A DNA stretch of 64,000 bases from Argopecten irradians. Taxonomy: Eukaryota > Mollusca > Bivalvia > Pectinida > Pectinidae. Of the stretch, positions 7,946-64,000 are shown in pieces. Made by a program: the position numbers and the translations under genes. Below the pieces are notes generated by a model, which was not told the origin of the DNA, made no database searches, and was given only the letters and a program-made list of their open reading frames with translations. Within the stretch, counting starts at the first letter, position 1. Each line of letters opens with the position of its first letter. The stretch covers positions 5,570,255-5,634,254 of the forward strand of contig NC_091134.1 in assembly GCF_041381155.1 (NCBI RefSeq). The letters are read 5' to 3'.

Positions 7946-8430
7946 TCTCACCTGATTTCTCTCCGACTCCACCATGTTCTCAATCTCTCGTTCTCAGCTT
8001 AGTAAAGTGTTGTGGGACTCTTCAGACAGAGCCATTCTGTTTACAAATCTCACCTCATTTCTCTCCGACTCCACCATGTTCTCAATCTCTCATACTCGGC
8101 TTAGTAATGTGTTGTGGGACTCTTCAGACAGAGCCATTCTGTATACAAATCTCACCTCATTTCTCTCCGACTCCACCATGTTCTCAATCTCTCGTACTCG
8201 GCTTAGTAACGTGTTGTGGGACTCTTCAGACAGAGCCATTCTGTTTACAAATCTCACCTCATTTCTCTCCGACTCCACCATGTTCTCAATCTCTCGTACT
8301 CGGCAAAGTAACGTGTTGTGGGACTCTTCAGACAGAGCCATTCTGTTTACAAATCTCACCTCATTTCTCTCCGACTCCACCATGTTCTCCATCTCCCGTA
8401 CTCGGCTTAGTAATGTGTTGTGGGACTCTT
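7946..8430 (-). repeat. 102-bp tandem repeat of an exon 3' end with its splice donor
   Basis: About five units of 102 bp (34 codons). On the minus strand each unit holds the exon end (SEESHNTLLSRVRE..., then a glutamate-rich ENMVESERNE), the donor AGAAATGAG|GTGAGATT, and 34 bp of former intron that stays open in frame. Donor copies end at 8360, 8258, 8156, 8054 and 7952; the last reads CAG|GTGAGA. In gene order the first three units are open. The fourth has a TGA at 8092-8090 where its sisters have CGA, again a C-to-T change at a CpG. Splicing at 8360, 8258 or 8156 would therefore give proteins differing by whole 34-residue units, while the last two donors lie past a stop. Confidence 0.85.
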
Positions 8431-11400
8431 CAAGACTGCTTCGAATACTTTTCTCTCTTTCCAAATCTTCTTTTAATTCTGACATCTTTTTCTCCATCTT
8501 TTGTTTGCCCGATACCATTTCCTCTGCAGACACAGCAGCCTCCGCCTAAAATCAATTATAAAAGACTTATTTATGTATATCCTCCTGTTTTTGTTTGCTT
8601 CCAATTGCCTGCTTGTTTGTTTGTGTTTTGTTTTATCTCTCAACAGCCATGAGCATAATTTTAATGTCAATTAATTTGTATTTCTTTTAATTTTCACCAT
8701 CTCAAACTGTCGCAAGCAAATTCGTGGAATTTCCATCCCCTGCTTTCAGGAGATATTGCATTGTAGGTAAACATTGTTGAGGTTAGGTTTAACCTTGGTT
8801 GAAACATGCCGTGGCAATCAAACTTGGCCAAGCCCTTAAGGCAATTTGACCTTGTTACCAAGTTTGAAGAAAATCGGTTAATATTTATTAGAGTTATTGC
8901 AGGGAAATGGCAGAAAATGACTTTTTCTTTTATTAAATCAAAGGGCCATAACTCTGCTAATTAAGATCTGCCAAAAGTGGCGATCAAACTTGGCTATAGC
9001 CCTTGAGACATTAAGTTTGTTACCAAGTTTTAACAATATTAGTTTTAACATTTGTTAGTTATTACACAGAAACTGCAGAAAAATGAAATTTGTAGTAAAT
9101 TAAAGGGCCATAACTCTGATAAATAACATCCGCTGAAAGAGTTTATCGAACTTAGCCAGGCACTTAAGGCATTCAACCTTGTTACCAAGTTTGAATAAAA
9201 TTGGTTAATATTTATTACAGTTATTGTACGGAAGTGGCAGAAACTGACTTTTAATTTTACTTAAGCAAAGGGCCATAACTCCGCTAAATAAGGTCCGTTG
9301 GAAGTCGTGATCAAACTTGGCCGAGTCCTTAAGGCATTTCATCTTGTTACTAAGTTTGAAGAAAATTGGTTTACAGTTATTGCAGGGAAACGAAGTGAAC
9401 ATTACAGACAGACGGACAGACAGACAGACGGACAAACCCAAATTAATATCCCCCGTTTTGGAGAAAGCGGGGGATAATAAAACATACAATGTGTGAATAT
9501 AGATTCTTATATATGATGGTTCAGATCCATAAAGCAGCAATATACTATTTACATAGGGGTAAATGTCACATGAAATATCACACGTTTTGAAAGAACCGCC
9601 ACAGTCAACACAATGTTTCAATTAAGTATAGGAAAACTGAGTTGCATCATGTGACCAACATTGACAATACCTGTATAGATCGGAACCCCCCAAGTCATAT
9701 AATGTAACCCACATCGGATAGGAATAGATTGGAACAGTTCGGAGATTTCCGAGCTATTTCAAACAGATATAAAAAACATCTTTCAAATTTGAGGAGAGGT
9801 GTCAAGGTGACACCATGTCAACAGCCATATGCATGCAAGGCCATAATTTAAAGGGAGGCTATCAAGTATTATAAAAATTAAGACACTAGCACAGTTTGGT
9901 CTTACATTTTCAGAAATATTAATTATAACATTGCAAAGTACTCAGATATATCATCAACTATATTCTAAGAAAATTTGGACTGATCACAGGGCCTTTTGTG
10001 ATTTTAACAAGGCTAATATTTGATGATCACTAACAAGAATTGTGTTTAAAGTTAATTTCAACCCTTGAATTCAGCTTTCAATTGTAAAATGGATAAAACA
10101 AAAAATAAAAAGAATCCCATATATAAAAATAAAAGGGGAAAATTGTAAGGGAATTATAATTATTTATCAATTTTACTACAAGTGTATGCACAGAGTACAA
10201 ATCACCATGCATGAAACAAATGTCTAAATCAAAAGTGGTTTGAATCTTTTATCAGACTACAACAAGCAGTACAAGGCTTTTTTTCTCATTAAATCTGGAA
10301 GTGGTGCCTTTTAAATCTCATTTTTAAGAGAATATTGACAAATTGGGAATTTAATTAAAGGAGTGTATTTTCTGAGAGTTTTACTGAAATTTGTTCGATC
10401 ATTTCCATTTTAGTGAGTGACTATGGTATATTTAACTTATTGTTAAATACTTTGATATGCCAATACACCATGATCCTTAAGGTAAGTGGCATATCAACTA
10501 TTTAATGATTTTAATAAATTTCATATTACATAGCCATAAAATAATGTAAAATTCTATTTATCACATACATGTATTAATATTTATATAAATATAGACCCCC
10601 AGTCAGGCAGCTCGGATATGACGTCTCTGTCTACCAAGACAATCGTGCGAGGTCATATTTTGATAATGATGGACATGTGAAATCACAATATATTTTTTAT
10701 TAACATGTGTCTTACAATATAAATTATGATATAGCTTTACTAGTGTATGACATGGCTAAACTGGTTATTATATGTGATAAATTCACATTTTCATGAATAT
10801 AAAGGGCTAACTTTAGGAGTCTACATACAATTCAGTGTAAACTGGTCTACTTCTCAAATCTTATCTGTAGTTATAATGTCAGAATGGCAATATTCATGTC
10901 CAATAAGTAGATATTATCACATTGCCTGAATACATTATCAAGACCTCTGATACCTGAAAATGACTGACTTATAAAGTGTATCAGGGAAAGCTGCAAAGTA
11001 ACGGTAATGAAAAGTATTAATGAAAAGAATTATCAGTGTACATGAAGACTTTATCACTCAGAGCTGTTTATCACAGACTAGGCATACTTAGTTCTGCGCT
11101 TTCAAAACTATAATGAAATCTAATTTTATGATCATGATCGCTTCAGGAAATTAAATTGATATCAATATTAAATTAAATACAACTTGGGGAAATATAAAAC
11201 TGTACGTACAGTACTAAGCAGTGCCAATCTATTTATTAGGATGATAAAGAAAAATCATTCAATTTCTATGTCAGAGAATTCGAACAGGACTTTGGAAGTA
11301 TATATAAATACCTGTGTTCAGAAGGAGAATTAACAGTCAAACACCATACAAATCGATTTTGTTAAGAAACAAAAAATACCTACTCTTGTTGTGGTAGCCT

Positions 11401-15540: not shown

Positions 15541-15790
15541 ATAATCATGGACTCACCAGAGTGCCTTAAGACCATTTTAGACGTTTTAGAGGTCTAGATT
15601 AAAAAATGATAAAAATCATACTCTACATGGTACTATATTTGAGAAGGGTGGAAAGCCTTAGACTCCAAATTTCTAACCCGCCTACCTTTAGCGGCTATAA
15701 AAACACATTTCAAGTACATCGTTTTCCTTTCAAAATCATCCTACACATATATACAAAGTGGTGTTATTAAGACGATATAAGCCCCATTAT
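15540..15790 (+). repeat. Dispersed element, copy 1 of an inverted pair
   Basis: The stretch starting ATGGACTCACCAGAGTGCC matches, in inverse orientation, the stretch that ends near 33020. Similarity continues through TTTAGACGTTTTAGAGGTC, TTTCCTTTCAAAATC and TATATACAAAG to AAGCCCC, with many substitutions and indels. Both copies also have a GCAATCTCATTGG phrase within 250 bp. The class is unknown. Confidence 0.6.
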
Positions 15791-17592: not shown

Positions 17593-17899
17593 GGGCGTTC
17601 CAGGTTAGGAGTCAAAACGTTCAGGAAAAGGTGGACCTGGCTGATGACGTCTGTGGAGCTGCAATCCAGGGATTGTATTTAGGTTATATTAATATTGTCA
17701 GTTAAGCTCTGGCATACATACTAATACTATAATCAGAGTTCAAGAAATGACTGGGTTTAAGTCTGTGTGAGACTTCATTGAAAGAATATTGAAATATTCT
17801 ACAAAGTGACCAATATGATTAAAATACATGTATATTCTGTTATTGCATTAGTCGGTTGTCCATGGCAACATACCAGAAGCCCACTATTTCCTGCTAAAT

Positions 17900-23879: not shown

Positions 23880-24915
23880 ATAGATTTCTTTGATGACAGC
23901 GAAACCATGGGTTGGAGATCGAATTCCTTGATGACACCCATCAGTGAGACTATCAACTGGAAATCAGATTTCTAAGATAATGTCTTGACACCAACAAAAC
24001 CATTGGTTAGAGATCAGATTCCCTTGGTAACAGCCATCAGCGAGACTATCAACAGGAAATCAGATTTCTAAGATAATGTCTACACACCAACAAAACCATT
24101 GGTTAGAGATCAGATTCCCTTGGTAACGGCCATCAGTGAGACTATCAACTGGAAATCAGATTTCTAAGATAATGTCTTGACACCAACAAAACCATTGGTT
24201 AGAGATCAGATTCCCTTGGTAACAGCCATCAGCGAGACTATCAACAGGAAATCAGATTTCTAAGATAATGTCTTGACACCAACAAATTAAAACCATTGGT
24301 TAGAGATCAGTTTCCCTTGGTAACGGCCATCAGCGAGACTATCAACTGGAAATCAGATTTCTATGATAATGTCTAGACACCAACAAAACCATTGGTTAGA
24401 GATCAGATTCCCTTGGTAACGGCCATCAGTGAGACTATCAACTGGAAATCAGATTTCTATGATAATGTCTAGACACCAACAAAACCATTGGTTGGAGATC
24501 AGATTCCCTTGGTAACGGCCATCAGTGAGACTATCAACTGGAAATCAGATTTCTATGATAATGTCTAGACACCAACAAAACCATTGGTAAGAGATCAGAT
24601 TCCCTTGGTAACGGCCATCAGCGAGACTATCAACTGGAAATCAGATTTCTATGATAATGTCTAGACACCAACAAAACCATTGGTAAGAGATCAGATTCTC
24701 TTGGTAACGGCCATCAGTGAGACTATCAACTGGAAATTAGATTTCTAAGATAATGTCTTGACACCAACAAATTAAAACCATTGGTTAGAGATCAGATTTC
24801 CTTGGTAACGGCCATCAGCGAGACTATCAACTGGAAATCAGATTTCTTTGATAATGTCTTGACACCAACAAAACCATTGGTTAGAGATCAGATTCCCTTG
24901 GTAACAGCCATCAGC
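23880..24915. repeat. 96-bp tandem array abutting the SLC35E2-like stop codon
   Basis: About eleven units of 96 bp with the phrases CCATTGGTTAGAGATCAG, GGTAACGGCCATCAG and GGAAATCAGATTTC. Some units carry an extra ATTAA. The final partial unit runs straight into the last codons of the minus-strand CDS: coding sequence around 24910-24960 (GATACTATTGGTCAGATTTC, then CACCCATGAGTGAG) resembles unit sequence (GAGACTATCAACTGG...CAGATTTC; CACCCATCAGTGAG). The array would lie in the 3' UTR or just past it. Confidence 0.9.
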
Positions 24916-24919
24916 GATA

Positions 24920-32212
<7,293 letters not shown>

Positions 32213-41900: not shown

Positions 41901-44900
41901 TGAACCATGATAAAACATAAAAAAATAATTTTTGTGCATTATTAATGTTCCTCACATAAATGCTTTTTCTTTAACCAAACAAATATTCTTCGAAATGAAA
42001 CTTTTGTTTACAGGATACAAGTATAGGATCTGAGGCCACTCGGGAACAGATGCTGTCTACAATCAGTCGAACCTTCTTAGTCTCCTGGAAGGAGGCAAAT
42101 CCAGAGACTTTATTTGTTCCAGATATAAGTTGTTGTGTGGAAGAAAATGGTGGGTTAAAATCATTTAAAAATAAAAGGATTCTGTAAACAAATTTTGCTT
42201 AACAATAATGTTAAAGATGCTCCATCACTGACAAACAGTATTTTTTCTCTATCAAAAACAAGAGCAGACGATTTAGTATTTTTCTTTAATTACAAATGTT
42301 ACTTACTTTACACCATTACCACCATTGAAAAGTTTGAGCTTCTAATTTTATTTCACGATAAAAATATTAAAAATAATTAATACATCCTTAAAAAATTCTG
42401 GGACGCTATGTCCTATGTGGAATGCAGTACTGATTGCACATGCACTGAAAGCAAAATAAATTATCTAAAATTATTTTTTGTATTAATTAGACATATATAT
42501 ACACGATTAAACTCCAATTATTTTTCAAATTATAGGTATCGTTTATGCTCCGTCGACAGTGGAGCATCTTTGAAAAATGACAGATTAATTATAAAAAAGT
42601 CAGATAAAAGACTTAGAAGAAATTAATTCATTGATGTTAAGGTGTCATACTTAAATTAACTGAATTTAAAAAACAAGTCTGAAAATTGGATCAACTTAAT
42701 TGATAATTCATTAATATTTGATGTGAATTTCATTCACAATTTAACAATATGTTTACTAGGGTACTACTTGATAATCTAAACAACCTAAAGAAAATACAGA
42801 TAAATCTAAATTTTGTGTATTATATAAGTTTTCTAATTGTTTTCAGATGATATTGATTACAAAGATCTTGTCAACAATGTAGTGATAGAGGTCTTATTGA
42901 AGATCAAAGATTCTAAAGACAATCCTGTTCTTAGACTCCGCCCTCCTGTAGAGACATCTGTGTCACCACGGAAACATGGATCTAGTCCAAAAGGGTAAAA
43001 ACAAAATATCTTATTCTTGGTTCATGATAGGGTTTACTGTATTCTTATTTAGGTGGTGTTAATTGCCCAGCATATGCAGGACATATCTGTAAAAATAAGT
43101 TGCAAATAGTAAAGTTCACAAGTAATATTCTTACAAGTTTATGGTGTTTTAATTATTATTAGCATAAAGTAGCCAATGACTGTATGTTTGCAGTTGAGGA
43201 AGTCAGATTAGGATTTGTATCTTATTTATAGTAACTTACTTTGTCTTTCACTATTTTTATTATGTCTTATTTATAGTAACTGACTTTGTCTTTTACTATT
43301 TTTATTATGTCTTATTTATAGTAACTAACTTTGTTCTTTTACTATTTTTATTATGTCTTATTTATAGTAACCGACTTTGTCTTTTACTATTTTTATTATG
43401 TCTTATTTATAGTAACTGACTTTGTCTTTTATATTTACTTTGTCTTATTTATAGTAACTACTATTTTACTATTATTTTGTCTTATTTATAGTAACTACTT
43501 TGTCTTTTACTATTTTTATTATGTCTTATTTATAGTAACTGACTTTGTCTTTTACTATTTTTATTATGTCTTATTTATAGTAACTGACTTTGTCTTTTAC
43601 TATTTTTATTATGTCTTATTTATAGTAACTGACTTTGTCTTTCACTATTTTTATTATGTCTTATTTATAGTAACTGACTTTGTCTTTCACTATTTTTATT
43701 ATGTCTTATTTATAGTAACTGACTTTGTCTTTTACTATTTTTATTATGTCTTATTTATAGTAACTGACTTTGTCTTTTACTATTTACATTATGTCTTATT
43801 TATAGTAACTAACTTTGTCTTTTACTATTTACATTATGTCTTATTTATAGTAAACTTTGTCTTTTACTATTTACATTATGTCTTATTTATAGTAACTACT
43901 TTGTCTTTTACTATTTACATTATGTCTTATTTATAGTAACTACTTTGTCTTTTACTATTTACATTATGTCTTATTTAGTAACTACTTTGTTTTTTATATT
44001 AATTATGTAAGTAACTACTTTGTCTTTTACTATTTACATTATGTCTTATTTATAGTAACTAACTTTGTCTTTTACTATTTACATTATGTCTTATTTATGT
44101 AACTACTTTGTCTTTTACTATTTACATTATGTCTTATTTATAGTAACTAACTTTGTCTTTTACTATTTACATTATGTCTTATTTATTGTAACTAACTTTG
44201 TCTTTTACTATTTACATTATGTCTTATTTATTGTAACTAACTTTGTCTTTTACTATTTACATTATGTCTTATTTATAGTAACTAACTTTGTCTTTTACTA
44301 TTTACATTATGTCTTATTTATAGTAACTACTTTGTCTTTTACTATTTACATTATGTCTTTTTATAGTAACTAACTTTGTCTTTTACTATTTACATTATGT
44401 CTTATTTTGTAACTAACTTTGTCTTTTACTATTTACATTATGTCTTATTTAGTAACTACTTTGTCTTTTACTATTTACATTATGTCTTATTTATAGTAAC
44501 TACTTTGTCTTTTACTATTTACATATGTCTTATTTATGTAACTAACTTTGTCTTTTACTATTTTTATTTGTAACACTTGTCTTTTACTATTTACATTATG
44601 TCTTATTTATGTAACTACTTTGTCTTTTCTATTATTATGTCTATTTATTGTCTTTTTTAGTCTTATTACTATTTGTTTTACTATTTACATATGTCTTATT
44701 ATAGTAACTACTTTGTCTTTTACTATTTACATTATGTCTTATTTATAGTAACTACTTTGTCTTTTACTATTTACATTATGTCTTATTTATAGTAACTATT
44801 ACTTTGTCTTATTTTTTTACTTGCTTTTACTATTTACATTATGTCTTATTTATAGTAACTAACTTTGTCTTTTACTATTTACATTATGTCTTATTTATAG

Positions 44901-47900
44901 TAACTTACTTTGTCTTTTACTATTTACATTATGTCTTATTTATAGTAACTAACTTTGTCTTTTACTATTTTTATTATGTCTTATTTATAGTAACTTACTT
45001 TGTCTTTTACTATTTACATTATGTCTTATTTATAGTAACTGACTTTGTCTTTTACTATTTACATTATGTCTTATTTATAGTAACTGACTTTGTCTTTTAC
45101 TATTTACATTATGTCTTATTTATAGTAACTAACTTTGTCTTTTACTATTTTATGTCTTATTTATAGTAACTACTTTGTCTTATTTTATTATAGTAACTAC
45201 TTTGTCTTTTACTATTTACATTATGTCTTATTTATAGTAACTAACTTTGTCTTTTACTATTTACATTATGTCTTATTTATGTATGATTTGTCTTATTATT
45301 TATAGTAACTGACTTTGTCTTTTACTATTTACATTATGTCTTATTTATAGTAACTGACTTTGTCTTTTACTATTTACATTATGTCTTATTTATAGTAACT
45401 GACTTTGTCTTTTACTATTTACATTATGTCTTATTTATAGTAACTAACTTTGTCTTTTACTATTTACATTATGTCTTATTTATAGTAACTAACTTTGTCT
45501 TTTACTATTTACATTATGTCTTATTTATTGTAACTAACTTTGTCTTTTACTATTTACATTATGTCTTATTTATTGTAACTAACTTTGTCTTTTACTATTT
45601 ACATTATGTCTTATTTATTGTAACTTACTTTGTCTTTTACTATTTACATTATGTCTTATTTATAGTAACTAACTTTGTCTTTTACTATTTACATTATGTC
45701 TTATTTATTGTAATATTTTATGTCTTATTTATAGTAACTACTTTGTCTTTTACTATTTACATTATGTTATTTATTTACTATGTTTACTTTCTTATATTAC
45801 TTATTTATTTATAGTACTACTTTGTCTTTTACTATATTTTATTATGTCTTATTTATAGTAACTAACTTTGTCTTTTACTATTTACATTATGTCTTATTTA
45901 TTAGTAACTACTTTGTCTTTACTATTTACATGTATTATGTAACTACTTGTCTTTACTTTTTACTTATGTCTTATTTATGTAACTACTTTGTCTTTTACTA
46001 TTTAATTATGTCTATTTATAGTAATTACTTGTCTTTTACTATTTCATTATGTTTATATGTAACTTTTATACTTTGTCTATTTGTACTACTTGTTTTACTA
46101 TTTACATTATGTCTTATTTATAGTAACTAACTTTGTCTTTTACTATTTACATTATGTCTTATTTATTGTAACTTACTTTGTCTTTTACTATTTACATGAT
46201 GTCTTATTTATAGTAACTAACTTTGTCTTTTACTATTTACATTATGTCTTATTTATAGTAACTAACTTTGTCTTTTACTATTTACATTATGTCTTATTTA
46301 TAGTAACTAACTTTGTCTTTTACTATTTACATTATGTCTTATTTATAGTAACTAACTTTGTCTTTTACTATTTACATTATGTCTTATTTATAGTAACTAA
46401 CTTTGTCTTTTACTATTTACATTATGTCTTATTTATAGTAACTAACTTTGTCTTTTACTATTTACATTATGTCTTATTTATTGTAACTAACTTTGTCTTT
46501 TACTATTTACATTATGTCTTATTTATAGTAACTTACTTTGTCTTTTACTATTTACATTATGTCTTATTTATAGTAACTTACTTTGTCTTTTACTATTTAC
46601 ATTATGTCTTATTTATAGTAACTTACTTTGTCTTTTACTATTTACATTATGTCTTATTTATAGTAACTAACTTTGTCTTTTACTATTTTTACATTATGTT
46701 TTACTTATAGTAACTACTTTGCTTTACTATTATGTCTATGTAACTACTTGTCTTTTATAGTCTTATTTATAGTAACTACTTTGTTCTTTTACTAATATTT
46801 CATTACTTGTCTTTATATTTATAGTAACTGACTTGTCTTATCTTTAGTACTACTATTTACATTATGTCTTATTTAAGTAACTACTTTGTCTTTAATTTAC
46901 TACTATATGTACTACTTTGTCTTTTACTATTTACTATTTTATGTCTTATTTATAGTAACTAACTTTGTCTTTTACTATTTACATTATGTCTTATTTATAG
47001 TAACTAACTTTGTCTTTTACTATTTACATTATGTCTTATTTATTGTAACTTACTTTGTTTTTTACTATTTACATTATGTCTTATTTATAGTAACTTACTT
47101 TGTTTTTTACCATTTACAGAGCACTAAAATTGGGTGCAGCTCCACTCCCTAAACGAGAATTTTCTCCTAAATACCCGTCTGAGAAGAATAAGGAGGTTGA
47201 TATGATAAACTACCTTCTAGACTGCTATGAGCGGGCTGGTATAGAGGAAAGAACAGCACCCATTGTGAGTATACTGTAAAAATACATATTACAATCAAAG
47301 TTTACAAGAAAGTTTAGCTTAGTTGGTATAGAACTGAGTAGTACAGTGATGGAGTTGCACAGTTACAGTAATTGTTATACTTACAGAAAATACAATTAGC
47401 ACAGACATGTTTTAGGGCAAAAGTTCTGACACACAAAAAAAAAACCAATGCTAAAATAATACAGTATTATATAGTAAAAAAAACCACGGAGTATAACGTA
47501 ACGCTTCCCAAAATGGAACACTTTTGAATTCTGTGATACAGAATTTTCAGTTTATAATCTAAACTAACAATAACTGTCCTGAACAAAAATTAAGGTGCCT
47601 AATAACTGTGACAGTTTTAATATGTCATTTTCTTTCCAGTTGCCTATTATCTGTATTTAAAAATTAAGAAAAATGAAATTTTGAAAAACTCTGGGAAACG
47701 ACGTCGTGCGACAACCCTAAAAACACCATATATTTTAAAATAAGAAAAACAATTGCTGAATTGAATATATTTGAAAGACATTTGACTTGAATAAACTAAA
47801 AAATGTTTGAACTTTCTGTAAATGAATTCAAACATTTTTTATCATACCTTGTTATTTATTAATCAAACTTTATTTAGGAGGTGTTCCATTTTTCGTACTC

Positions 47901-50900
47901 AAACTTAGGGCTTGACTGGGCATGCTTTAATGCTCTGTATTTATAATTAAACAAATCATGAAATTTAAAATAAAGGCATCTATTTGTGGAATATTAAGAA
48001 AAAAATCTGGATTCGAGCACAAGTAAATAAAAGTAAAAAGATATTAAATTTTAGAAATAAAAAAGGAAAATTGAATTTATTGTAAATAAGTTTTACTGTT
48101 TGTTGAATAAGAAAAAAGTGAGAGATTTCAAGTCCAGCTTAAAAAGATGCTATGGCTGTGTCTGTGTTTGTTGTTACAGAAAGCAAGTATCCCACCAATG
48201 AGTGTGATGTTGTCAACGACGAGAAATCAGTGTGTCTGCCATACAGTTCTGGTACTTCAAGGAGTGCTTACCCAACCCAGGTGAACTTTTTCTTCAATAA
48301 TTTTACTGTTTCAGTGTGAAAGATAGCGATGTAAAATGCCCTTTGGCAATAAGATTTATAGCTAGACTAAACTGAAGATATGAACATTTGAAAAATTAAT
48401 TTTATGTATTACTTTTGATCATGTGTTTATGTGGAAATGAAAATTGCTTATCAAATTGAATATTATATAAAGCAGTATCCTTGTGATTTAGAAGTAATTA
48501 ATATTAATTTAACAAACAATTTGATCGATTTTTAATAGAACTTGCAAATATAAGCATTCAGATTAAATTTACAATCTGACTTTAGCCAAGGAATATTTGA
48601 TACAGTGATGTCTATCTGTGATCTGTACCACATTCTGTTGATTTTGTGTGCAGGTCTATCTGTGATATGTACCACATTCTGTTGATTTTGTGTGCAGGTC
48701 TATCTGTGATATGTACCACATTCTGTTGATTTTGTGTGCAGGTCTATCTGTGATATGTACCACATTCTGTTGATTTTGTGTGCAGGTCTATCTGTGATAT
48801 GTACCACATTCTGTTGATTTTGTGTGCAGGTCTATCTGTGATATGTACCACATTCTGTTGATTTTGTGTGCAGGTCTATCTGTGATATGTACCACATTCT
48901 GTTGATTTTGTGTGCAGGTCTATCTGTGATATGTACTACAATTTGTTAATTTTGTGTGCAGGTCTATCTACCACATTCTGTTGATTTTGTGTGCAGGTCT
49001 ATCTGTGATATGTACCACATTCTGTTGATTTTGTGTGCAGGTCTATCTGTGATATGTACCACATTCTGTTGATTTTGTGTGCAGGTCTATCTGTGATATG
49101 TACCACATTCTGTTGATTTTGTGTGCAGGTCTATCTGTGCATATATGTACCACATTCTGTTGATTTTGTGTGCAGGTCTATCTGTGATATGTACCACATT
49201 CTGTTGATTTTGTGTGCAGGTCTATCTGTGATATGTACCACATTTGTTGATTTTGTGTGCACCACATTGAATGTTACACATTTGTTGTTTTGTGTGCAGG
49301 TCTATCTGTGATATGTACCACATTCTGTTGATTTTGTGTGCAGGTCTATCTGTGATATGTACCACATTCTGTTGATTTTGTGTGCAGGTCTATCTGTGAT
49401 ATGTACCACATTCTGTTGATTTTGTGTGCAGGTCTATCTGTGATATGTACCACATTCTGTTGATTTTGTGTGCAGGTCTATCTGTGATATGTACTACAAT
49501 TTGTTAATTTTGTGTGCAGGTCTATCTGTGATATGTACCACATTCTGTTGATTTTGTGTGCAGGTCTATTGGTGGAATGTCCATCCTGTTACCCTTCCTT
49601 CTCTCGCATAATCTTCCAAGAGGGTTTCTATCTGAGCTGGTTCAAACAACGTACCACGACAAAAATACATTTAATACGGTATGTCAGGTGTATTTTGTTT
49701 TCACTAATCGTTAACAAAATTTCAAAATTGCTTTAATTATATTTTATGATATTAAATTATTATTATATAACAATATTAAGATTGTTTTGATTTAGAAATG
49801 ATGATTTGTTTTCTGATTGTTATCTACAGAGTTTGATTTCCTGTTACAGGTGTTTGGCCCTGTGATACAGAGTCTGACAAGGTTGATACATACATTATCA
49901 CTAGACAATGAAGATTATCGTGATCCTCTCACAGTCCTGTCTGAATTATGTGAAGTGAAGAGTGGCAATACTAGACCTATATGTTCATTGGTAACGTAAC
50001 AAATGTTTTACATTTAATATTTGATAATGTTTTATTTGGAGTTAGACATCTGAGGCACCCTCTACTACACCATCAAAACTCTACAGGAAATAGTATGTTT
50101 ATGAACATTTAATAAAACAAGAATTTGAAACATATTATTTAATTTAAGTATAAAACTCATATATTTAAGTTACATCTTACACATACCTTAGTTAATGATT
50201 TTCACAAATTGTTACAAACCAGATTTTTTATTCATGTAGAAAAATTTTATGAATATTTATTAATTTAAATGATTATTGGTTTATTGTTTGCTTTTGTATC
50301 TGCTTTCAAAAGCTTTTCAGCCTTTTATATTTAGTAAATATATTTCTTTATCCAACTGTAAATGATTACTGGTATCTATAGTTCTTGTTTTGGTGTATGT
50401 AGATTGTTCAGCAGTCCAACTGGATACCAGAGGCACTATCTCAGGCTTCTGGCATGGAACTGGAGAAACTTACCTTACTGGGACCATTTCTAGGTCTCTC
50501 CGTGTTCGCAGAGGATAATGTAAGTTGCTCAGGATTTTTTTACTAAAAGTTAAATGATAATTATAAGTTCCTCACCGAAGAACTTACGTTTTGTTCAGGA
50601 TTACTACCAATTTAAATAGTTACGTGATAGAATTGTTTGTTCTATTGTCAGAAACTTTAGTATTTCCCTTCAAACGTTATGAGTAAAACAATTTACCTAT
50701 AAGTCTGTTGGTTTGTTTTAGGACAATGTAATATTTATTAATTTGATTTTTTGTAATAAATGAGTATAATTGTACTTATTATTTGACTCGTATCATGATC
50801 TTTTGATTTATTACTGTATCTCTTAGGAATGAAATTTCATGGTAGAGTACAAGTTAATCAACATTAAATTAAAAGTTCAGTAAAAATAGACAATAATAAA

Positions 50901-53900: not shown

Positions 53901-56900
53901 GAAACAAGACTGCGATCTCTTCCCGATGATGCAGATAAATGGGCACAAAGTCTTAGTAAGTTAACCTATTATCTAACTATTAGGACATTAATACATTTTG
54001 TACCCTAAAAAGGCCAATTACATCTAGATGTCCTTATCTGTAGGTACTTTGTGTTACTTTCTGATTCAGTTTAACCCAAACTAAATGGTTCTGACATACT
54101 ACAAGAAGACATGTGACATTTAAATTACACCAGATATTTCTTTTATCTATCAATGTTTAGGATGAACAGTCAAATGACAATTAAATGCTTGTTTCCTTTG
54201 TCATCTTCAGGCCTACTGTATTAGATGTTTCCATTTAGAAAACTAATGAAATGAAATTTTATTTCACATATGTCATAGATTGAACTATTATAATGTTGCT
54301 TATTCCATTTCAGAAGAACAGAAGAACCCACCCTGGCAGGAACCTAAATTTCCCACAGAATGTTTCTTCCTCACTCTTCACTGCCACCATCTGTCCATCA
54401 TACCAGTGTCCCGTCGCTACCAGAGACGGCTTCGTGCAATAAGAGATCTCAACCGTATGGTGGAGGAAATGGAGGCCGCCGAGCCTCAGTGGTCCCTTCT
54501 CCCTAACGCCTCACGAAACAAAGAGCTCCTCAAAAAGTGGAAGTCCCAAGCTCAGGTATGGAGGGTTATCAGAATTGAACATTACCTTTATATGCCTCAG
54601 CCATGAAAATAAAGTTCCCATGTTTCTTGTATCCCATACAATTCATAATTTATGGGAGACTTCACCCTACAAAATTCTTGTAAATAAACACTGTTGTAAT
54701 TAGTACCTTCAATTATCAATATATTATTTAACTTCTTAGTTATTGACTCAAATGTGCTAAAACTTAATTTGTATAGCTATGATAGTTTATGATGACTGAA
54801 GTTTTGGTTGTTGAGGAAAGCTTAGTCAGTACCTGAAGATAAGTTTGAAACACTGACCTGCAGCTATTACAACAATAAGTAATCTATGAGAACTGGAATA
54901 CATTAGATTTGTTTGACCCACAGCCTTTTAAGAGCTTACAGAAATAGGTATATCATGTTTCTAATATCATGCTTTTCATTTGATGAAAATTGTTTATTGT
55001 GGCGACAGAGACTACAAAAGAGCAAGCTTTGTGCTGATGCAGCTGTTCTGGATGAGAGTCTATTGATGCACTGTCTGGAATTCTACAGTTCTCTCGCAGA
55101 CTATATACTTAAAGCTATGGATCCCACGAATAGAGGGTAAACAATACACACGCTGATTTGTAAGCTACATATCAAGTACATGTGAAACAAAATTATTTAT
55201 TTTAGTTTATTTTATTATAATACATACAATATTCAAGTCTATGAAACATTAAGTCTTCTTTTCAAGGTAAGAAAGATGCGTATCTAATTTAAATAAATAA
55301 ATTGATGCCTGATCTTTAAATGGGAGAGGGGACATGAAGTGTTACCCATGTAGATATAGCTAGGCTTTGTTATATTCATTCCAATCTCATTTCAGTTAAA
55401 ATGACTAATTTCAGGATATACCACTGCAATTTTTACATCGGCAGAAAGATTTAATTTTGAATACACAATTTTTTTAACATATTGAATGGTTAAATTTAAG
55501 AATAACAATTCAGATAAGTTCCCAGATAAATAGAATGATATAATTTAGTAAGTGATTTTGAATATGTTTCAGAATGACATTACCATTACCTGATGACATT
55601 CCAATGCAGTTCTCAGCACTACCAGACTTCTATCTGGAGGACATAGCTGACTTCCTTCTGTTCGCACTTCAGTAAGTAACCGACAAGCTCATGACATGAA
55701 ACTTTTAAACCAGTTTTCTTTCATGGCCTCTATATTTCCCCATTTGTGTTTCAAAACAAATTTGCAAAAATTTACCTTTTTATCCCCCGCCCAACGAAGT
55801 TGGCGGGGATATACAAATGGGTTCCGTCCGGCTGTCCGTCCGTACGAATGGTTTCCAGAGCATAACTCTAAAACCAGTTGAGATATTCCCACGAAACTTC
55901 ATACACACATTGTTCTTATGGTCTAGTAGTGCCTTTTGCTATTTTTAGGTTTTCATTTTTTGCATTTTTTCCGTAACCATGGAAACATTGCTGAAAATAT
56001 CATTTTTTTGTACCAGGTTTGTTTCCGGAGCATAACTCTAAAACCAGAAGAGATATTTCCACGAAACTTCAGAGACACATTGTTCTTATGGTCTAGTAGT
56101 GCCTTTTGCTATTTTAAGGTTTTCACTTTGTACTTTTTTCTGTAACCATGGAAACATTGCTGAAAATGGCAGATTTTTGTACCAGGTTTGTTTCCGCAGC
56201 ATAACTGGAAAACCGGTTGAGATATATGCACAGAACTCCATAGGCACATTAGTCTTATGGTCTAGTAGTGCCTTTTGCTATTTTAAGGTTTTCACTTTTT
56301 GTACTTTTTTCTGTAACCATGGAAACATTGCTGAAAATGGCAGATTTTAATGTAAGAATCGTTTCCGGAGCACAACTCTAAAAGCAGCAGAGATATTTCC
56401 ATGAAACTTCATAGACACATTGTTCTTATGATCTAGTAGTGCCTTTTGCTATTTTTAGGTTTTCACTTTTTGTGCTTTTTTCTGTACGATAGAAACATTG
56501 CTGAAAATATCATATTTTTGTAGCAGGTTCATTTCCAGAGCATAACTCTAAAACCAGCACAGATATTTCCATGAAACTTCATAGACACATTCTTTTTATG
56601 GTCTAGTAGTACCTTTTGCTATTTTTAGGTTTTCCTTTTTTTGCACTTTTTCTGTTACCATGGAAACATTGCTGAAAATATCATGGTAAATGGTAAATGT
56701 TACTTTGCAAAACTCCACCCATCTTTGTGTGAAATTCATTTTGGGACTCTTTTGTCTATGAAATCATTACGCCGTCATCTCAGCCAATCAGAAGCAACGT
56801 TACAAACGGCAACGCCATTTTTTCCTTTATGGACTGATAAAGTAAATTTTTAAGCCAATGAAAATGCTCGTTACATGCAAAATTGAATTATTCTAATATA

Positions 56901-59530
56901 AATGTCAAGGCTGTATACCTGATTCAACAATTGCAGCCCCGCTCTACTTGAATTATACTCCATCTTTCTTTAGCTCAACTTCCTTTTTCCTGGTTTTTTT
57001 CATACACATAGGTCTCCACAATCAAACTTACTTCAGCTTTGATATCTCCATTTGTGGGGGATCTGAATGACTATGTCCTTGTTGGATTTAAAAATGAGTG
57101 GAAATTGCTTTCAATATGAATTCAGTAGATGTCAATTGGCATAGATAAACTCACAAATTGATGATCCCTGCTTTAGCTGGATTTTTTTTTATAATATATA
57201 TTATATTCTGACTAGGTTTGTGCACCAAATATTTGTCAACCTCTGCTCTGACTGTATACTATATTATTTCAATTCTAGGCTTGTGCCCCAGATATTTGTC
57301 GACCCCTGCTCTGACCGTATATTATATGATTTTGTTTCTAAGCTTGTGCCTCAGATATTCGACGACTCCTGCTCTGACCATATATCATATAATTTTGTTA
57401 CTAGGTTTGTGCCCCAGATATTTGATGACCCCTGCTCTCACCGTATATTATTTTGTTTCTAGATTTGTGCCCCAGATATTTGATGACCCCTGCTCTGACC
57501 GTATATTATTTTGTTTCTAGATTTGTGCCCCAGATATGTGATGACCCCTGCTCTGACCATATATTATTTTGTTTCTAGATTTGTGCCCCAGATATGTGAT
57601 GACCCCTGCTCTGACCATATATTATTTTGTTTCTAGATTTGTGCCCCAGATATGTGATGACCCCTGCTCTGACCATATATTATTTTGTTTCTAGGTTTGT
57701 GCCCAGATATGTGATGACCCCGGCTCTGACCATATATTATTTTGTTTCTAGGTTTGTGCCCAGATATGTGATGACCCCGGCTCTGACCGTATATTATTTT
57801 GTTTCTAAGTTTGTGCCCCAGATATTTGGCGACCCCTGCTCTGACCGTATATTATTTTGTTTTTAGGTTTGTGCCCCATATAATTGACGACTCCTGTTCT
57901 GACCGTATATTATTTTGTTTCTAGGTTTGTGCCCCAGATATTTGATGACCCCTGCTCTGACCGTATTATCCATGTGTTGGTGGTGTTGATCTGTAGTAGC
58001 ACCCGTTACATCAACAACCCGTACCTCACTGCCAAGCTGGTCGAGGTGGTGTTTGTCATGAATCCAGCCATACAGCAGCAGACAGTCAACCTCCACACTA
58101 GACTCCTCATGCACCCTCTGGCCCTCCAGCATCTAGTACCAGCTCTAATGACCTTCTACACAGGTTACTTACAAAACTTTCTCAGTTTTTCCATGGTCAT
58201 GCCTCGGTAGTGAGAGACATGTAACCATGATTATCTCATCCTATCTGGTTACATTGGAAACCATCAGCTTGATTTCAAAGAGAGAACAGACATTTCTAGT
58301 CTTGTGTAAAATTAACTGAAATATCTGCTTCTTCTTTTGATTAAATTGAAGAATCTGATAAGATCTTTGTTTTATGAAATTCACACACATTTAATCATCC
58401 CAAGTTTGTCAATGATATTAATATTATTCTTTGACATTTGTTATAGAAATTGAGACAACAGGAGCTAGCAGTGAGTTTTATGACAAGTTTACAATTCGTT
58501 ATCACCTCAGCATCATCTTTAAGGCCATGTGGAGCATTCCCAGTCACCAGTTGAGAATGATAGATGAGGCGAGGTAATATCTTTAATACTTTTTTATGCC
58601 ATGTTTTATATGTGTAAGAATACCCATGTGCACTTTTTAGCCCACCATTATCAGATGGTGTTCTATTCAAATTGTTTTTTGTCCGTGGTCCTTGGTCCGT
58701 CCTTCCGTGTGTCCATAAACAATTCTTGTTATCACTATTTCTCAAAAAAATTCTGAAGGGATCTGTTTCTAATTTCATATGTATGTTCCCCTAGGGCCTT
58801 AGTTATGCATATTGCCTTTTGGGACCAATTGGTCAACAAGGTATACTCCACTAGCAGATATTATGAATGAAATATTTTCTTCCCACAGTCATATATTACA
58901 TATTAGTAGACGGGACGGTTTTGTGACAGCAAAATTTATTTATTTACAACTTTTAACGTTTTATTGAATAAAATGTGACCGATATCTCTGCTGTCAAAAA
59001 ATGTTGTGTTAAGGTGTTTGCATTATCTGAGCTAGTTTGACGATATTAATAGCTTCATTGAATCTCTAACAATACTCTCTCTTTGACGCACGATAGGTTT
59101 AGAAGAAGCATCGCTTTTATGTCATAATTTCAGCCGATTTTTCATCTTGAAGCGGGTGTTTTTTCATTGTTTTTGTGTGTCCGATATCACTGCCGGTGAC
59201 GTAGGTTGTCCCCATTGATATTGCAGTTAAAAATTAGGATGTAATTATAGTACCTATTAATATAAATGTAAAGCAACACCTCATTCTGTACCAGGGTATA
59301 ACACATCTCTCTACTAATTACTATCAAATGAGACCCTATACTTACGGACATCAGACATGATAGAATTATACCACAATTATTTCAGGAACGGTAAGCACTT
59401 TGTGAAGTTTGTGAATATGCTGATGAACGATACAACATTCCTACTGGACGAGAGTATGGACTGCCTGAAGAGGATCCATGAGGTCCAGGAAGACATGGAA
59501 AACACTGTGGAATGGGCTAAACAACCAAAG
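35915..59530 (+). CDS. UBE4B: UBE4B-like ubiquitin conjugation factor E4 (Ufd2 family), 21 exons, C-terminus outside the window
   Basis: Coding exons: 35915-35938, 39150-39339, 39789-39852, 40068-40158, 42014-42149, 42847-42994, 47120-47264, 48180-48280, 49564-49678, 49850-49990, 50403-50519, 50940-51038, 52190-52303, 53452-53541, 53850-53955, 54314-54555, 55009-55136, 55573-55671, 57925-58163, 58447-58573, 59386-59530. All junctions are GT-AG and in phase, giving 887 open codons. The N-terminus reads [18 protein letters not shown], the UBE4B hallmark (not UBE4A), followed by a Q/S-rich stretch, [10 protein letters not shown] and [15 protein letters not shown]. The family extends ubiquitin chains on substrates and binds p97/VCP. 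The final exon ([20 protein letters not shown]) leads toward the U-box, which would lie beyond 64000. ATG is at the usual family position, with ETS and CRE sites upstream. No inactivating lesion is seen. Confidence 0.95.
36172..38386. mobile_element. 2.2-kb fold-back element in UBE4B intron 1
   Basis: The ends AGGTTGGG (36172) and CCCAACCT (38379-38386) start inverted arms of at least 110 bp: GGGATAATTTTGTTACGCAA pairs with the inverse of TTGCATAACAAAATTATCCC, and CTGTGAAATGAAAA with TTTTCATTTCACAG. A further inner pair, AGAGATTTAAATAGTATTGG (about 36460) with CCTACTATTTAAATCTCTG (about 38025), shows the arms extend roughly 350 bp. Flanks GGCCCT and GGCCCC may be a decayed target duplication. 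There is no transposase; the class is unknown. Inside, a diverged direct repeat (ATATTTGAAAACT...GTCAAT...ATTG...CAGAGTA) occurs near 37390 and 37610. Confidence 0.75.
38697..38770. repeat. Short direct duplication in UBE4B intron 1
   Basis: The phrase TAAGTAATAAATAATAGAAC plus CATTTTA occurs twice, about 37 bp apart, in AT-rich intron sequence. Confidence 0.6.
40656..40740. repeat. 41-bp tandem duplication in UBE4B intron 4
   Basis: CTGTCTATTCTGAAAACTGG followed by ACTGATCTTGG...TTTTACT occurs twice with no visible difference, starting at 40656 and 40697. It is a recent local duplication. Confidence 0.85.
41360..41910. repeat. Dispersed repeat with GGCCTTGAAAAGTCCTTGAA motifs in UBE4B intron 4
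   Basis: Clusters of GGCCTTAAAAAGTCCTTGAA-type phrases stand at both ends (about 41385-41490 and 41827-41878) around unrelated sequence. The class is uncertain and there is no coding potential. Confidence 0.5.
43225..47110. repeat. 45-bp minisatellite filling UBE4B intron 6, about 85 copies
   Basis: The unit is 45 bp (15 codons): TAACTAACTTTGTCTTTTAC followed by TATTTACATTATGTCTTATT and TATAG. It runs to the acceptor of exon 7, where the last copy changes from TTTTACTATTTACATTATG to TTTTTACCATTTACAG|A. Each unit has its own pyrimidine-rich TTATTTATAG, so it looks like an acceptor. Long hydrophobic open frames ([15 protein letters not shown] repeated) arise only because 45 is a multiple of three. 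Noisy patches lie at 44560-44690, 45270-45300, 45760-46090 and 46690-46940. Confidence 0.95.
47265..48179. other. UBE4B intron 7
   Basis: AT-rich, with no repeat or embedded gene recognised. The other UBE4B introns not listed separately (2, 3, 5, 9-11, 14-17, 19) likewise show nothing beyond AT-rich sequence. Confidence 0.5.
48605..49570. repeat. 44-bp minisatellite carrying the exon 9 splice acceptor, about 21 copies
   Basis: The unit starts GTCTATCTGTGATATGTACC and ends GATTTTGTGTGCAG. The last copy supplies the real acceptor GTGTGCAG|GTCTATTGGTGG of exon 9 at 49563/49564, so every unit holds an acceptor and 6-10 exon-like bases. Most copies are identical. Units near 48930 and 49495 share the variant TACTACAATTTGTTAATTTTG, evidence of copying within the array. 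Confidence 0.95.
51115..51495. repeat. Hairpin-headed dispersed repeat in UBE4B intron 12
   Basis: It starts with the hairpin AGCTCACCTGGTC...GAACCAAGGTGAGCT, continues with GTCTGTCGTCCGTCCGTC, and ends with CAGGCCCTCTGGGCCTCTTG. This is a non-coding family common in bivalve genomes. Confidence 0.7.
52558..53292. repeat. Dispersed repeat (AGCCCACCATCATCAGATGG family), long copy in UBE4B intron 13
   Basis: The head hairpin CACCATCATCAGATGGTG is followed by TTTTTGTCCGTGGTC and then internal subrepeats of about 160 bp built on TACCGCTATTTCTCAG...GTAGGTTCCCCTAGG...GCATATTGC. The tail is GGTCCCTCAGGATCTCTTGTT. A truncated relative is at 58638-58845. Confidence 0.75.
55780..56690. repeat. Hairpin-headed dispersed repeat with five ~168-bp subunits in UBE4B intron 18
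   Basis: The head TATCCCCCGCCCAACG...TTGGCGGGGATA forms a hairpin. GAGCATAACTCTAAAACCAG recurs near 55857, 56027, 56195, 56369 and 56535 (spacing about 165-174 bp), each followed by GAAACTTCAT and CTAGTAGTGCCTTTTGC. It has the same architecture as 8750-9475. Confidence 0.8.
57210..57930. repeat. 58-bp minisatellite of acceptor plus exon 19 start, about 12 copies
   Basis: Each unit contains TTTCTAG|GTTTGTGCCCC and then about 42 bases of exon 19 (CAGATATTTGATGACCCC, TGCTCTGACCGTAT) before diverging into ATTATTTTG. The genuine exon 19 (57925-58163) is the last copy. Older copies at the left (57210-57410) are more diverged; those next to the exon are nearly identical to it. An upstream acceptor copy would read into the TAG of the next copy's own acceptor. 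Confidence 0.93.
58638..58845. repeat. Dispersed repeat (AGCCCACCATTATCAGATGG family), truncated copy in UBE4B intron 20
   Basis: Same head, GTCCGTGG segment and CCCCTAGGGCC...ATGCATATTGCC segment as the element at 52558, but only one subunit. It is 65 bp downstream of the exon 20 donor. Confidence 0.75.
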
Positions 59531-62500
59531 GTAATATAGGCTGAATAACCAAAGGTAATATAGGCTAAATAACCAAAGGTAATATAGGCTAAATAACCAA
59601 AGGTAATATAGGCTAAATAACCAAAGGTAATATAGGCTAAATATCCAAAGGGAATATAGGCTAAATAACCAAAGGTAATATAGGCTAAATATCCAAAGGT
59701 AATATAGGCTATACAACCAAAGGTAATATAGGCTAAATAACCAAAGATAATATAGGCTAAATATCCAAAGGTAATATAGGCTAAATAACCAAAGGTAATA
59801 TAGACTTAACAACCAAAGGTAATATAGGCTGAATAACCAAAGGTAATATAGACTTAACAACCAATGGTAAAATAGGCTAAACTACCAAAGGTAATATAGA
59901 CTTAACAACCAAAGGTAATATAGGCTGTATAACCTAAGGTAATATAGGCTAAACAATCAAAGATAATATAGGCTAACCACCAAAAGTAATATAGGCTGAA
60001 CACTTAAAGGTTATATAGGCTGAACACTCAAAGGTAATATAGGCTAACAACCAAAGGTAATATAGGCTAACAACCAAAGGTAATATAGGCAATAAACAAC
60101 CAAAGGTAATATAGGCTAAACAACCAAAGGTAATATAGGCTAAACAACCAAAGGTAATATAGGCTAAATAACCAAAGGTAATATAGGCTAAATAACCAAA
60201 GGTAATATAGGCTAAACAACCAAAGGCAATATAGGCTAAATAACCAAAGGTAATATAGGCTAAACAACCAAAGGCAATATAGGCTAAATAACCAAAGGTA
60301 ATATAGGCTAAACAACCAAAGGTAATATAGGCTAAATAACCAAAGGTAATATAGGCTAAACAACCAAAGGTAATATAGGCTAAATAACCAAAGGTAATAT
60401 AGGCTAAACAACCAAAGGCAATATAGGCTAAATAACCAAAGGTAAAAGGCTAAACAACCAAAGGTAATATAGGCTAAACAACCAAAGGTAATATAGGCTA
60501 ACAACAAAGGTAATATAGGCTAACACCAAAGGTAATATATAGGCTAAAAACCAAAGGTAATATAGGCTAAACAACCAAAGGTAATATAGGCTAAACAACC
60601 AAAGGAATATAGGCTAAACAACTCAAAGGTAATATAGGCTAAACAACCAAAGGTAATATAGGCTAAACAACCAAAGGTAATATAGGCTAAACAACCAAAG
60701 GTAATATAGGCTAAACAACCAAAGGAATATAGGCTAAACAACCAAAGGTAATATAGGCTAAACAACCAAAGGTAATATAGGCTAAATAACCAAAGGTAAT
60801 ATAGGCTAAACAACCAAAGGTAATATAGGCTAAATAACCAAAGGTAATATAGGCTAAACAACCAAAGGAATATAGGCTAAATAACCAAAGGTAATATAGG
60901 CTAAACAACCAAAGGTAATATAGGCTAAACAACCAAAGGTAATATAGGCTAAATAACCAAAGGTAATATAGGCTAAACAACCAAAGGTAATATAGGCTAA
61001 ACAACCAAAGGTAATATAGGCTAAATAACCAAAGGTAATATAGGCTAAACAACCAAAGGTAATATAGGCTAAACAACCAAAGGTAATATAGGCTAAATAA
61101 CCAAAGGTAATATAGGCTAAACAACCAAAGGTAATATAGGCTAAATAACCAAAGGTAATATAGGCTAAACAACCAAAGGTAATATAGGCTAAACAACCAA
61201 AGGTAATATAGGCTAAATAACCAAAGGTAATATAGGCTAAAAACCAAAGGTAATATAGGCTAAATAACCAAAGGTAATATAGGCTAAACAACCAAAGGTA
61301 ATATAGGCTAAATAACCAAAGGTAATATAGGCTAAACAACCAAAGGTAATATAGGCTAAATAACCAAAGGTAATATAGGCTAAACAACCAAAGGTAATAT
61401 AGGCTAATAACCAAAGGTAATATAGGCTAAACAACCAAAGGTAATATAGGCTAAATAACCAAAGGTAATATAGGCTAAACAACCAAAGGTAATATAGGCT
61501 AAATAACCAAAGGTAATATAGGCTAAACAACCAAAGGTAATATAGGCTAAATAACCAAAGGTAATATAGGCTAAACAACCAAAGGTAATATAGGCTAAAC
61601 AACCAAAGGTAATATAGGCTAAACAACCAAAGGTAATATAGGCTAAATAACCAAAGGTAATATAGGCTAAACAACCAAAGGTAATATAGGCTAAATAACC
61701 AAAGGTAAATAGGCTAAACAACCAAAGGTAATATAGGCTAAACAACCAAAGGTAATATAGGCTAAATAACCAAAGGTAATATAGGCTAAATAACCAAAGG
61801 TAATATAGGCTAAACAACCAAAGGTAATATAGGCTAAACAACCAAAGGTAATATAGGCTAAACAACCAAAGGTAATATAGGCTAAAAACCAAAGGTAATA
61901 TAGGCTAAATAACCAAAGGTAATATAGGCTAAACAACCAAAGGTAATATAGGCTAAACAACCAAAGGTAATATAGGCTAAACAACCAAAGGTAATATAGG
62001 CTAAATAACCAAAGGTAATATAGGCTAAATAACCAAAGGTAATATAGGCTAAACAACCAAAGGTAATATAGGCTAAACAACCAAAGGTAATATAGGCTAA
62101 ATAACCAAAGGTAATATAGGCTAAACAACCAAAGGTAATATAGGCTAAATAACCAAAGGTAATATAGGCTAAACAACCAAAGGAATATAGGCTAAATAAC
62201 CAAAGGTAATATAGGCTAAACAACCAAAGGTAATATAGGCTAAATAACCAAAGGTAATATAGGCTAAATAACCAAAGGTAATATAGGCTAAATAACCAAA
62301 GGTAATATAGGCTAAATAACCAAAGGTAATATAGGCTAAACAACCAAAGGTAATATAGGCTAATAACCAAAGGTAATATAGGCTAAACAACCAAAGGTAA
62401 TATAGGCTAAAAACCAAAGGTAATATAGGCTAAACAACCAAAGGTAATATAGGCTAAATAACCAAAGGTAATATAGGCTAAACAACCAAAGGTAATATAG

Positions 62501-64000
62501 GCTAAAATAACCAAAGGTAATATAGGCTAACAACCAAAGGTATATATAACAAATAACCAAAGGTAATATAGGCTAACAACCAAAGGTAATAATAGGCTAA
62601 ACAACCAAAGGTAATATAGGTAATATAGGCTAAAACCCAATATAGGCTAAAACAACCAAAGGTAATATAGGCTAAACAACCAAAGGTAATATAGGCTAAA
62701 CAACCAAAGGTAATATAGGCTAAATAACCAAAGGTAATATAGGCTAAACAACCAAAGGTAATATAGGCTAAATAACCAAAGGTAATATAGGCTAAACAAC
62801 CAAAGGTAATATAGGCTGAACACCAAAGGTAATATAGGCTAAACAACCAAAGGTAATATAGGCTAAACAACCAAAGGTAATATAGGCTAAATAACCAAAG
62901 GTAATATAGGCTAAACAACCAAAGGTAATATAGGCTAAATAACCAAAGGTAATAAAGGTAATATAGGCTAAATAACCAAAGGTAATATAGGCTAAATAAC
63001 CAAAGGTAATATAGGCTAAACAACCAAAGGTAATATAGGCTAAACAACCAAAGGTAATATAGGCTAAATAACCAAAGGTAATATAGGCTAAACAACCAAA
63101 GGTAATATAGGCTAAATAACCAAAGGTAATATAGGCTAAACAACCAAAGGTAATATAGGCTAAACAACCAAAGGTAATATAGGCTAAACAACCAAAGGTA
63201 ATATAGGCTAAACATAAACCAAAGGTAATATAGGCTAAACAACCAAAGGTAATATAGGCTAAATAAACAAAGGTAATATAGGCTAAACAACCAAAGGTAA
63301 TATAGGCTAACAACCAAAGGTAATATAGGCTGAACAACCAAAGGTAATATAGGCTAAACAACCAAAGGTAATATAGGCTAAATAACCAAAGGTAATATAG
63401 GCTAAATAACCAAAGGTAATATAGGCTAAGGTAATATAGGCTAAATAACCAAAGGTAATATAGGCTAAATAACCAAAGGTAATATAGGCTAAACAACCAA
63501 AGGTAATATAGGCTAAATAACCAAAGGATATAGGCTAAACAAATAATATAGGCTAAATAACCAAAGGTATAAGGCTAACAACATAAATAAATATCCAAAG
63601 GTAATATAGGCTAAACAACCAAAGGTAATATAGGCTAAATAACCAAAGGTAATATAGGCTAAATAACCAAAGGTAATATAGGCTAAATAACCAAAGGTAA
63701 TATAGGCTAAATAACCAAAGGTAATATAGGCTAAATAACCAAAGGTAATATAGGCTAAACAACCAAAGGTAATATAGGCTAAATAACCAAAGGTAATATA
63801 GGCTAAATAACCAAAGGTAATATAGGCTAAATAACCAAAGGTAATATAGGCTAAACAACCAAAGGTAATATAGGCTAAATAACCAAAGGTAATATAGGCT
63901 GAATAACCAAAGGTAATATAGGCTAAACAACCAAAGGTAATATAGGCTAAATATAGGCTAAACAACCAAAGGTAATATAGGCTAAACAACCAAAGGTAAT
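59513..64000. repeat. 24-bp minisatellite of the exon 21 end plus donor, more than 180 copies, open at the right edge
   Basis: The unit is 24 bp: GTAATATAGGCTAAACAACC then AAAG. The last 17 bases of exon 21 (GGCTAAACAACCAAAG) and its donor GTAATATAGG are the first copy, so each unit recreates CAACCAAAG|GTAATATAGG. Two main variants, AAACAACC and AAATAACC, alternate in patterns. In frame, any use of a later donor reads GTA ATA TAG, an immediate stop. Noisy patches lie at 60480-60545, 62510-62650 and 63530-63600. The long hydrophobic frames on the minus strand (FSLYYLWL repeated) are artefacts of a 24-bp unit. Confidence 0.97.

Follow-up and report, generated by a model that had tools for sequence, protein, structure and literature searches.

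Four tandem arrays in the genome of the scallop Argopecten irradians have repeat units that span the edge of an exon together with its splice site, and we consider it likely that they are minisatellites of the "mirage" type: ordinary tandem duplications that survived at exon edges since the exon-side copy still splices, and that subsequently expanded. They lie in a 64,000-nucleotide stretch (NCBI RefSeq assembly GCF_041381155.1, contig NC_091134.1, positions 5,570,255 to 5,634,254 of the forward strand; hereafter the window), which carries three animal genes, the orthologues of CCDC150, SLC35E2A and UBE4B. The feature is real and most likely ordinary in origin. The genes, exons and arrays concerned are as follows, with the evidence for each in brackets.

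11929-11384 and 8545-8360, minus strand: CCDC150 orthologue, two exons in the window.
7925..8432, minus strand: 102-bp array in CCDC150, 5.0 copies (Tandem Repeats Finder, sequence, per-position table).
8360..8545, minus strand: CCDC150 exon, its end the probable authentic first copy, donor 8360|8359 (sequence, aligned proteins).
39150 to past the window end, plus strand: UBE4B orthologue.
48610..49569, plus strand: 44-bp array, 22.1 copies, each unit carrying the acceptor and the start of the exon in diverged form (Tandem Repeats Finder, sequence, shuffles).
49564..49678, plus strand: UBE4B exon, probable authentic acceptor 49563|49564 in the last copy (frame, relatives).
57197..57966, plus strand: 58-bp array, 13.1 copies (Tandem Repeats Finder, sequence).
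57925..58163, plus strand: UBE4B exon, probable authentic acceptor 57924|57925 in the last copy (frame, relatives).
59386..59530, plus strand: UBE4B exon, probable authentic donor 59530|59531 in the first copy (frame, relatives).
59515..64000, plus strand: 24-bp array, ~186 units, running into the window end (Tandem Repeats Finder, sequence).

Tandem Repeats Finder (TRF) returned 54 rows in the window, which merge into 11 arrays making up 37.9% of it; overlapping rows were merged, arrays were kept at a minimum of 3.0 copies and 440 bp, and the rows at 98, 9404, 24943, 25196, 38700, 40656, 41382 and 41843 were left out as short or two-copy. Seven arrays (38, 45, 62, 96, 154, 165 and 170 bp) have no exon-splice unit. 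In the other four the unit lies across an exon-intron boundary and the splice signal is kept in many copies; in the 44-bp unit the exon sequence is diverged and weakly supported beyond six bases. Each 102-bp unit consists of 72 exon bases and, across the donor, 30 intron bases, with the GT kept in 5/5 copies, while the 24-bp unit is built in the same order from 16 exon bases, the donor and 8 intron bases. On the acceptor side, each 58-bp unit has 16-19 intron bases with the acceptor followed by 39-42 exon bases, and its AG is kept in 13/13 and 11/13 copies at the two positions. The 44-bp unit shares six identical bases with the exon start, a weaker match reaching ~27 bases into the exon, and keeps its AG in 22/22 and 21/21 copies (one gap). 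This match is the best among 20 exon starts and was equaled by 2 of 500 shuffles (6/500 for an unrelated exon start), or by 63 of 5000 when the comparison is made without the six identical bases. The first-pass annotation of this DNA had listed these four splice-edge arrays, and all four hold up, with the exonic part corrected from 17 to 16 bases for the 24-bp unit and to 39-42 for the 58-bp unit. A degenerate piece resembling the 58-bp unit, TTGATGATCCCTGCTTTAG, is found at 57155-57180, before the start that TRF gives for this array, which was probably longer once.

The same annotation placed the end of a further array, of 45 bp, inside the pyrimidine tract of an acceptor, and this is borne out:

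43220..47118, plus strand: 45-bp array, occupying the greater part of an intron, with its end in the acceptor tract (TRF, sequence).
47120..47264, plus strand: UBE4B exon adjoining it (exon model, relatives).

The array stops one base short of the exon at 47120. Exon sequence is not detectable in its unit (score 6.0; 187/500 shuffles equally good), and none of its 71 other AG sites gives a stop-free reading.

Because of the reading frame and the comparison with relatives, we regard the exon-adjoining copy as the authentic site in each of the four arrays. Joined at the exon-side copies, 15 UBE4B exons (47120-59530) yield 669 codons with no stop, and the three UBE4B junctions carry no inserted repeat in 4/4 aligned relatives. 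When other copies are taken as the splice site, none of the alternatives leaves an open frame in the 44-bp (0/20), 58-bp (0/22) or 24-bp array (0/176). In CCDC150, the 34-residue repeat is missing from 8/8 aligned proteins (7 species), in which other sequence continues where the array copies begin.

The remaining copies nevertheless often hold splice sites as strong as the real one. In the 24-bp array, 166 exact AAGGTAATA donors, the same nine bases as the real donor, lie on the intron side. None of the four further donors of the 102-bp array scores below the real donor, and of the 24 AG sites in 48560-49570, the real one counted, 18 score at or above the real acceptor; the matrices used were built from 24 donors and 25 acceptors of the window genes, including the real sites under test. 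Since these decoys are as strong as the real site, site strength alone cannot direct the choice of the spliceosome in the 24-, 102- and 44-bp arrays, and position beside the exon would have to do so. Strong extra conservation of the splice bases is not seen in the per-position substitution counts of the 24-bp array (13/1680 at positions 14-22 vs. 33/2600 elsewhere, position 8 left out), and position 8 is T in 79 of 182 units, which in the exon copy would be a stop (TAA). With the splice bases not clearly protected and this T tolerated, the array copies appear to drift as intron sequence. The 24-bp array, which spans 4.5 kb within the window, mixes two interleaved unit types, AAACAACC (82) and AAATAACC (67), the T type being the one that would be a stop if read as exon; TRF reports periods of 48 and 72 for it in addition to 24.

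The breakpoints of the duplications lie 16 (24 bp), about 22-27 (44 bp), 39-42 (58 bp) and 72 bases (102 bp) into the exons. Two of the four fall at shared words of 3-6 bases: CTGTT at intron -19 and exon +23 for the 44-bp unit, and TAT, or TATTAT with a two-base shift, on both sides for the 58-bp unit. Judged by eye, such words look like the expected trace of slippage or microhomology joining. It had been proposed that the unit boundary can be drawn at AG|GT in each array and that AGGT could be a preferred start point for duplication. The former is true of the units and adds no information, as any circular unit that contains AGGT can be cut there, and AGGT is inside the unit because the splice site is; writing an array as beginning at AG|GT is a choice of rotation and no evidence. 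The latter does not agree with breakpoints well inside the exons. AGGT on one strand is found in 4 of the 7 arrays without an exon-splice unit (62, 154, 165 and 170 bp; not 38, 45 and 96 bp), where by our own reckoning ~2/7 are expected from unit length at equal base frequencies. With the breakpoints elsewhere and no clear excess in the other arrays, AGGT was rejected as the breakpoint. With respect to recursive (ratchet) splice sites, which would combine a polypyrimidine tract and AG with a good donor immediately after it, the 44-bp unit reads TTTTGTGTGCAG|GTCTAT, in which GTCTAT looks weak by eye.

We favor the following sequence of events, of which the mutational mechanism and the neutrality are inferred. 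A short tandem duplication would by chance span an exon-intron edge, the probable process being polymerase slippage, or end joining where a few bases are shared. The duplication could be costless, with the exon-adjoining copy keeping the exon and the splice site and the remaining copies becoming intronic; it would survive because the exon-side copy leaves the exon unchanged. The array could then expand by slippage or unequal exchange, as other intronic minisatellites may do in a repeat-rich genome, and the spliceosome would pick the exon-adjoining copy by position and exon definition, not by site strength. The earlier suggestion that only duplications preserving splicing survive fits these data, given that the exon-side copy restores the exon of the relatives and that the alternatives are closed in the 44-, 58- and 24-bp arrays. 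Tandem repeats make up 15.10-15.53% of the A. irradians genome (PMC7090048, Table 2), and 21.7% is given for the scallop A. pleuronectes (PMC10225492); repeat volume alone can be enough to supply such cases.

A coding end in the window has been struck by an array in the same way, which supports an origin by ordinary duplication. It represents a fifth edge-type case, absent from the first-pass annotation:

32209-24920, minus strand: SLC35E2A orthologue.
23902..24923, minus strand: 96-bp array, 10.6 copies, from the SLC35E2A stop codon (24922-24920) into the 3' flank (TRF, sequence).
24943..25007, minus strand: 32-bp two-copy duplication in the coding end of the last SLC35E2A exon, frame-shifting (TRF, alignment).

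The 96-bp unit shows a weak similarity to about 30 bases of the SLC35E2A coding end (2/1000 shuffles as good). The frame shift caused by the 32-bp duplication leads to a 17-residue tail that the five aligned proteins of other species lack, while another frame in the window still reads SLMGDAKEI*, an older-looking end that resembles the short KEV, KDI, KDV and KLI ends of these five proteins. This gene end illustrates the cost of duplication in coding DNA.

How often arrays should cross an edge by chance depends on the null model. Arrays placed at random in introns had been expected to touch exon edges rarely. This expectation is not confirmed here: with arrays collapsed to one unit, the median length of 19 UBE4B introns is 436 bp (mean 597 bp), and such short introns combined with units of 24-170 bp mean that crossing is often to be expected, at ~2 of 10 arrays. 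When each array is placed within its own intron (the 96-bp array left out as not intronic, the last intron assumed to be 300-3000 bp), 1.82-1.95 of 10 arrays are expected to cross an edge and four do (P = 0.085-0.108), or P = 0.030-0.044 without the two diverged arrays of 165 and 154 bp. Placement within the gene spans gives 2.26-2.42 of 11, with P 0.17-0.20 for at least four crossings (0.047-0.063 without the two diverged arrays) and 0.064 for at least five when the stop-codon array is included. As the window was picked for these arrays, all P values, including those below, understate the true P. Chance could thus be the source of the edge crossings.

Several points weigh against the interpretation preferred here, and some suggest instead a real preference for edges, which is also possible. 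Under placement across the whole window only 1.19-1.27 of 11 crossings are expected, with P 0.021-0.027 for at least four and 0.0042 for at least five with the stop-codon array, falling to 0.0046-0.0063 and 0.0006, respectively, without the two diverged arrays. In addition, CCDC150 enters the own-intron calculation with no more than the part of its intron that lies in the window, which raises the expectation somewhat and makes crossing look likelier than it is. When 56 coding edges were scanned for two-copy junction duplications, with 60 shuffles each, 0/60 shuffles were as good at the 58-bp, 102-bp, 24-bp and stop-codon edges; the 44-bp edge (2/60) was no better than the array-free donor 31966 (1/60) and acceptor 49850 (2/60), results that are about the chance level for 56 edges. 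No further convincing duplicated edge was found among the 56, and this lack of young two-copy cases, some of which might be expected, weighs against frequent harmless junction duplication. Site strength is also not irrelevant throughout: the real acceptor beside the 45-bp array scores 11.72, above all decoys (best 8.5), and the real acceptor of the 58-bp array beats most of its decoys, with 4 of 24 AG sites, itself counted, scoring at or above it. Furthermore, the breakpoint words are short and their intron side was taken from an array copy, and the copy used in RNA is one that we infer from the frame and the orthologous proteins.

The likeliest alternative is that tandem duplications in this genome arise preferentially at exon-intron edges as mutational hot spots, either through AGGT or through a process linked to transcription or splicing (e.g., R-loops), so that arrays start there more often than by chance. 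In its favor are the four splice-edge arrays among the 11, the fifth array on a stop codon, and the whole-window probabilities, which are lower still when the two diverged arrays are dropped. The excess fades, however, under the gene-span and own-intron placements, the breakpoints lie away from AGGT, and the window was picked for the pattern, so that we consider this explanation unlikely. Extended to scallops in general, the corresponding proposal would be that minisatellites arise repeatedly at exon edges, more often than neutrality would predict, and that duplicated splice junctions thereby keep supplying spare splice sites, altered coding ends and, occasionally, in-frame exon extensions such as the 34-residue CCDC150 unit; this we regard as speculative and quite unlikely.

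It could also be argued that the repeated sites are functional and form a ladder of alternative splice sites. Two of the four downstream CCDC150 donors, the second and third donors of the array when the real one is counted as first, keep the frame open and would add 34 or 68 residues, their scores equal that of the real donor, and in C. elegans the intronic minisatellite CeRep25B is described as enriched near multiple alternative splicing choices (PMC4039745). Yet the other two donors meet stops, the insert is missing from all eight aligned proteins, 34 residues, by our reckoning, do not divide into whole heptads, and the alternatives in the 44-, 58- and 24-bp arrays are never open-frame, which makes a functional ladder very unlikely. 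Multiplication of short repeats by the assembler has a precedent in the amphioxus BflGb6 mirage, haplotype 1 of which appears misassembled in the draft genome (PMC3087553), and the assembled copy number here may be wrong. The units, however, vary in mixed patterns, the two interleaved types of the 24-bp array not being clean copies, and over 379 aligned residues the assembled SLC35E2A shows no difference from an annotated Argopecten protein (the A. irradians-named cluster representative, which has one extra N-terminal methionine), and we thus view an assembly artefact as highly improbable. That the arrays are new introns derived from duplicated AGGT-bearing exon pieces, as the first-pass annotation had envisaged, is suggested by units rotatable to GT...AG and by a published model (PMC3443670), and is very unlikely: in the 44- and 58-bp introns the two splice sites do not come from one duplicated AGGT segment, the far donors (48280 and 55671) being 329 and 1525 bp from the array and outside any array, while the introns with the 102- and 24-bp arrays have their far ends beyond the window.

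The gene assignments are supported by Pfam matches to Ufd2P_core in the UBE4B piece and TPT in the SLC35E2A piece, and the best matches for UBE4B (97%) and CCDC150 (92%) are from Pecten maximus, the entries being cluster representatives. The visible part of the presumed CCDC150 intron also holds the 38-bp array (584-7684, ~187 units), whose nearest exon is 675 bp away. Between 16001 and 18000 the G+C content is 0.476, compared with 0.339 and 0.304 in the flanks; plus-strand frames at 16000-17600 show a weak match to zf-RVT (1.3e-5), whose 26.2 bits fall short of the curated cut-off of 27.5, four other frames have no Pfam match, and the stretch is probably a retroelement fragment. At gathering score, Rfam gave no match in the window.

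Minisatellites across exon-intron boundaries are known from amphioxus, and our observations extend the mirage pattern, in the literature searched reported only from that animal, to a mollusc and thus to a new phylum. The first report reportedly concerned the amphioxus Adh gene (Nucl Acids Res 2002). Besides this, the array of 24 bp provides a natural experiment in splice-site choice, with one donor judged authentic followed by 166 sites of the same nine bases, mostly at 24-bp steps, and arrays of this kind are a warning that exon edges may be misplaced by gene predictors where genomes are rich in repeats. The literature searched listed no molluscan minisatellite that spans an exon-intron boundary, which is no proof of absence, and a paper on Daphnia tandem repeats (PMC3152781) contains none of the three splice-related terms looked for. 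The 27-bp minisatellite in intron 3 of an abalone TSSK1-like gene has head-to-tail intronic units as in the scallop; unlike the scallop arrays, it is not placed on a splice site in the source text (PMC6905558). Intron gain by tandem genomic duplication resembles the scallop case in that the duplicated segment includes AGGT, but that model derives both new splice sites from the duplicated exonic piece (PMC3443670), whereas in the scallop one site is repeated where both ends are visible. The closest parallel is therefore found in the amphioxus mirages, described for Adh3, the globins BflGb6 and BflGb9, TnC and PGBD5, with units of 10-160 bp and with Adh3 data and globin RT-PCR (reverse-transcription PCR) that suggest regular splicing (PMC3087553, PMC3902484). 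Like the scallop arrays, these are repeats across 5' or 3' exon-intron boundaries in which many copies carry AG/GT. They differ in that the scallop is a bivalve mollusc in which two genes within 64 kb hold four splice cases, known here from DNA alone, and in scale: BflGb6 haplotypes are described with 3 and 6 units (PMC3087553, PMC3902484), while the scallop 24-bp array has ~186 units over 4.5 kb, a length limited by the window.

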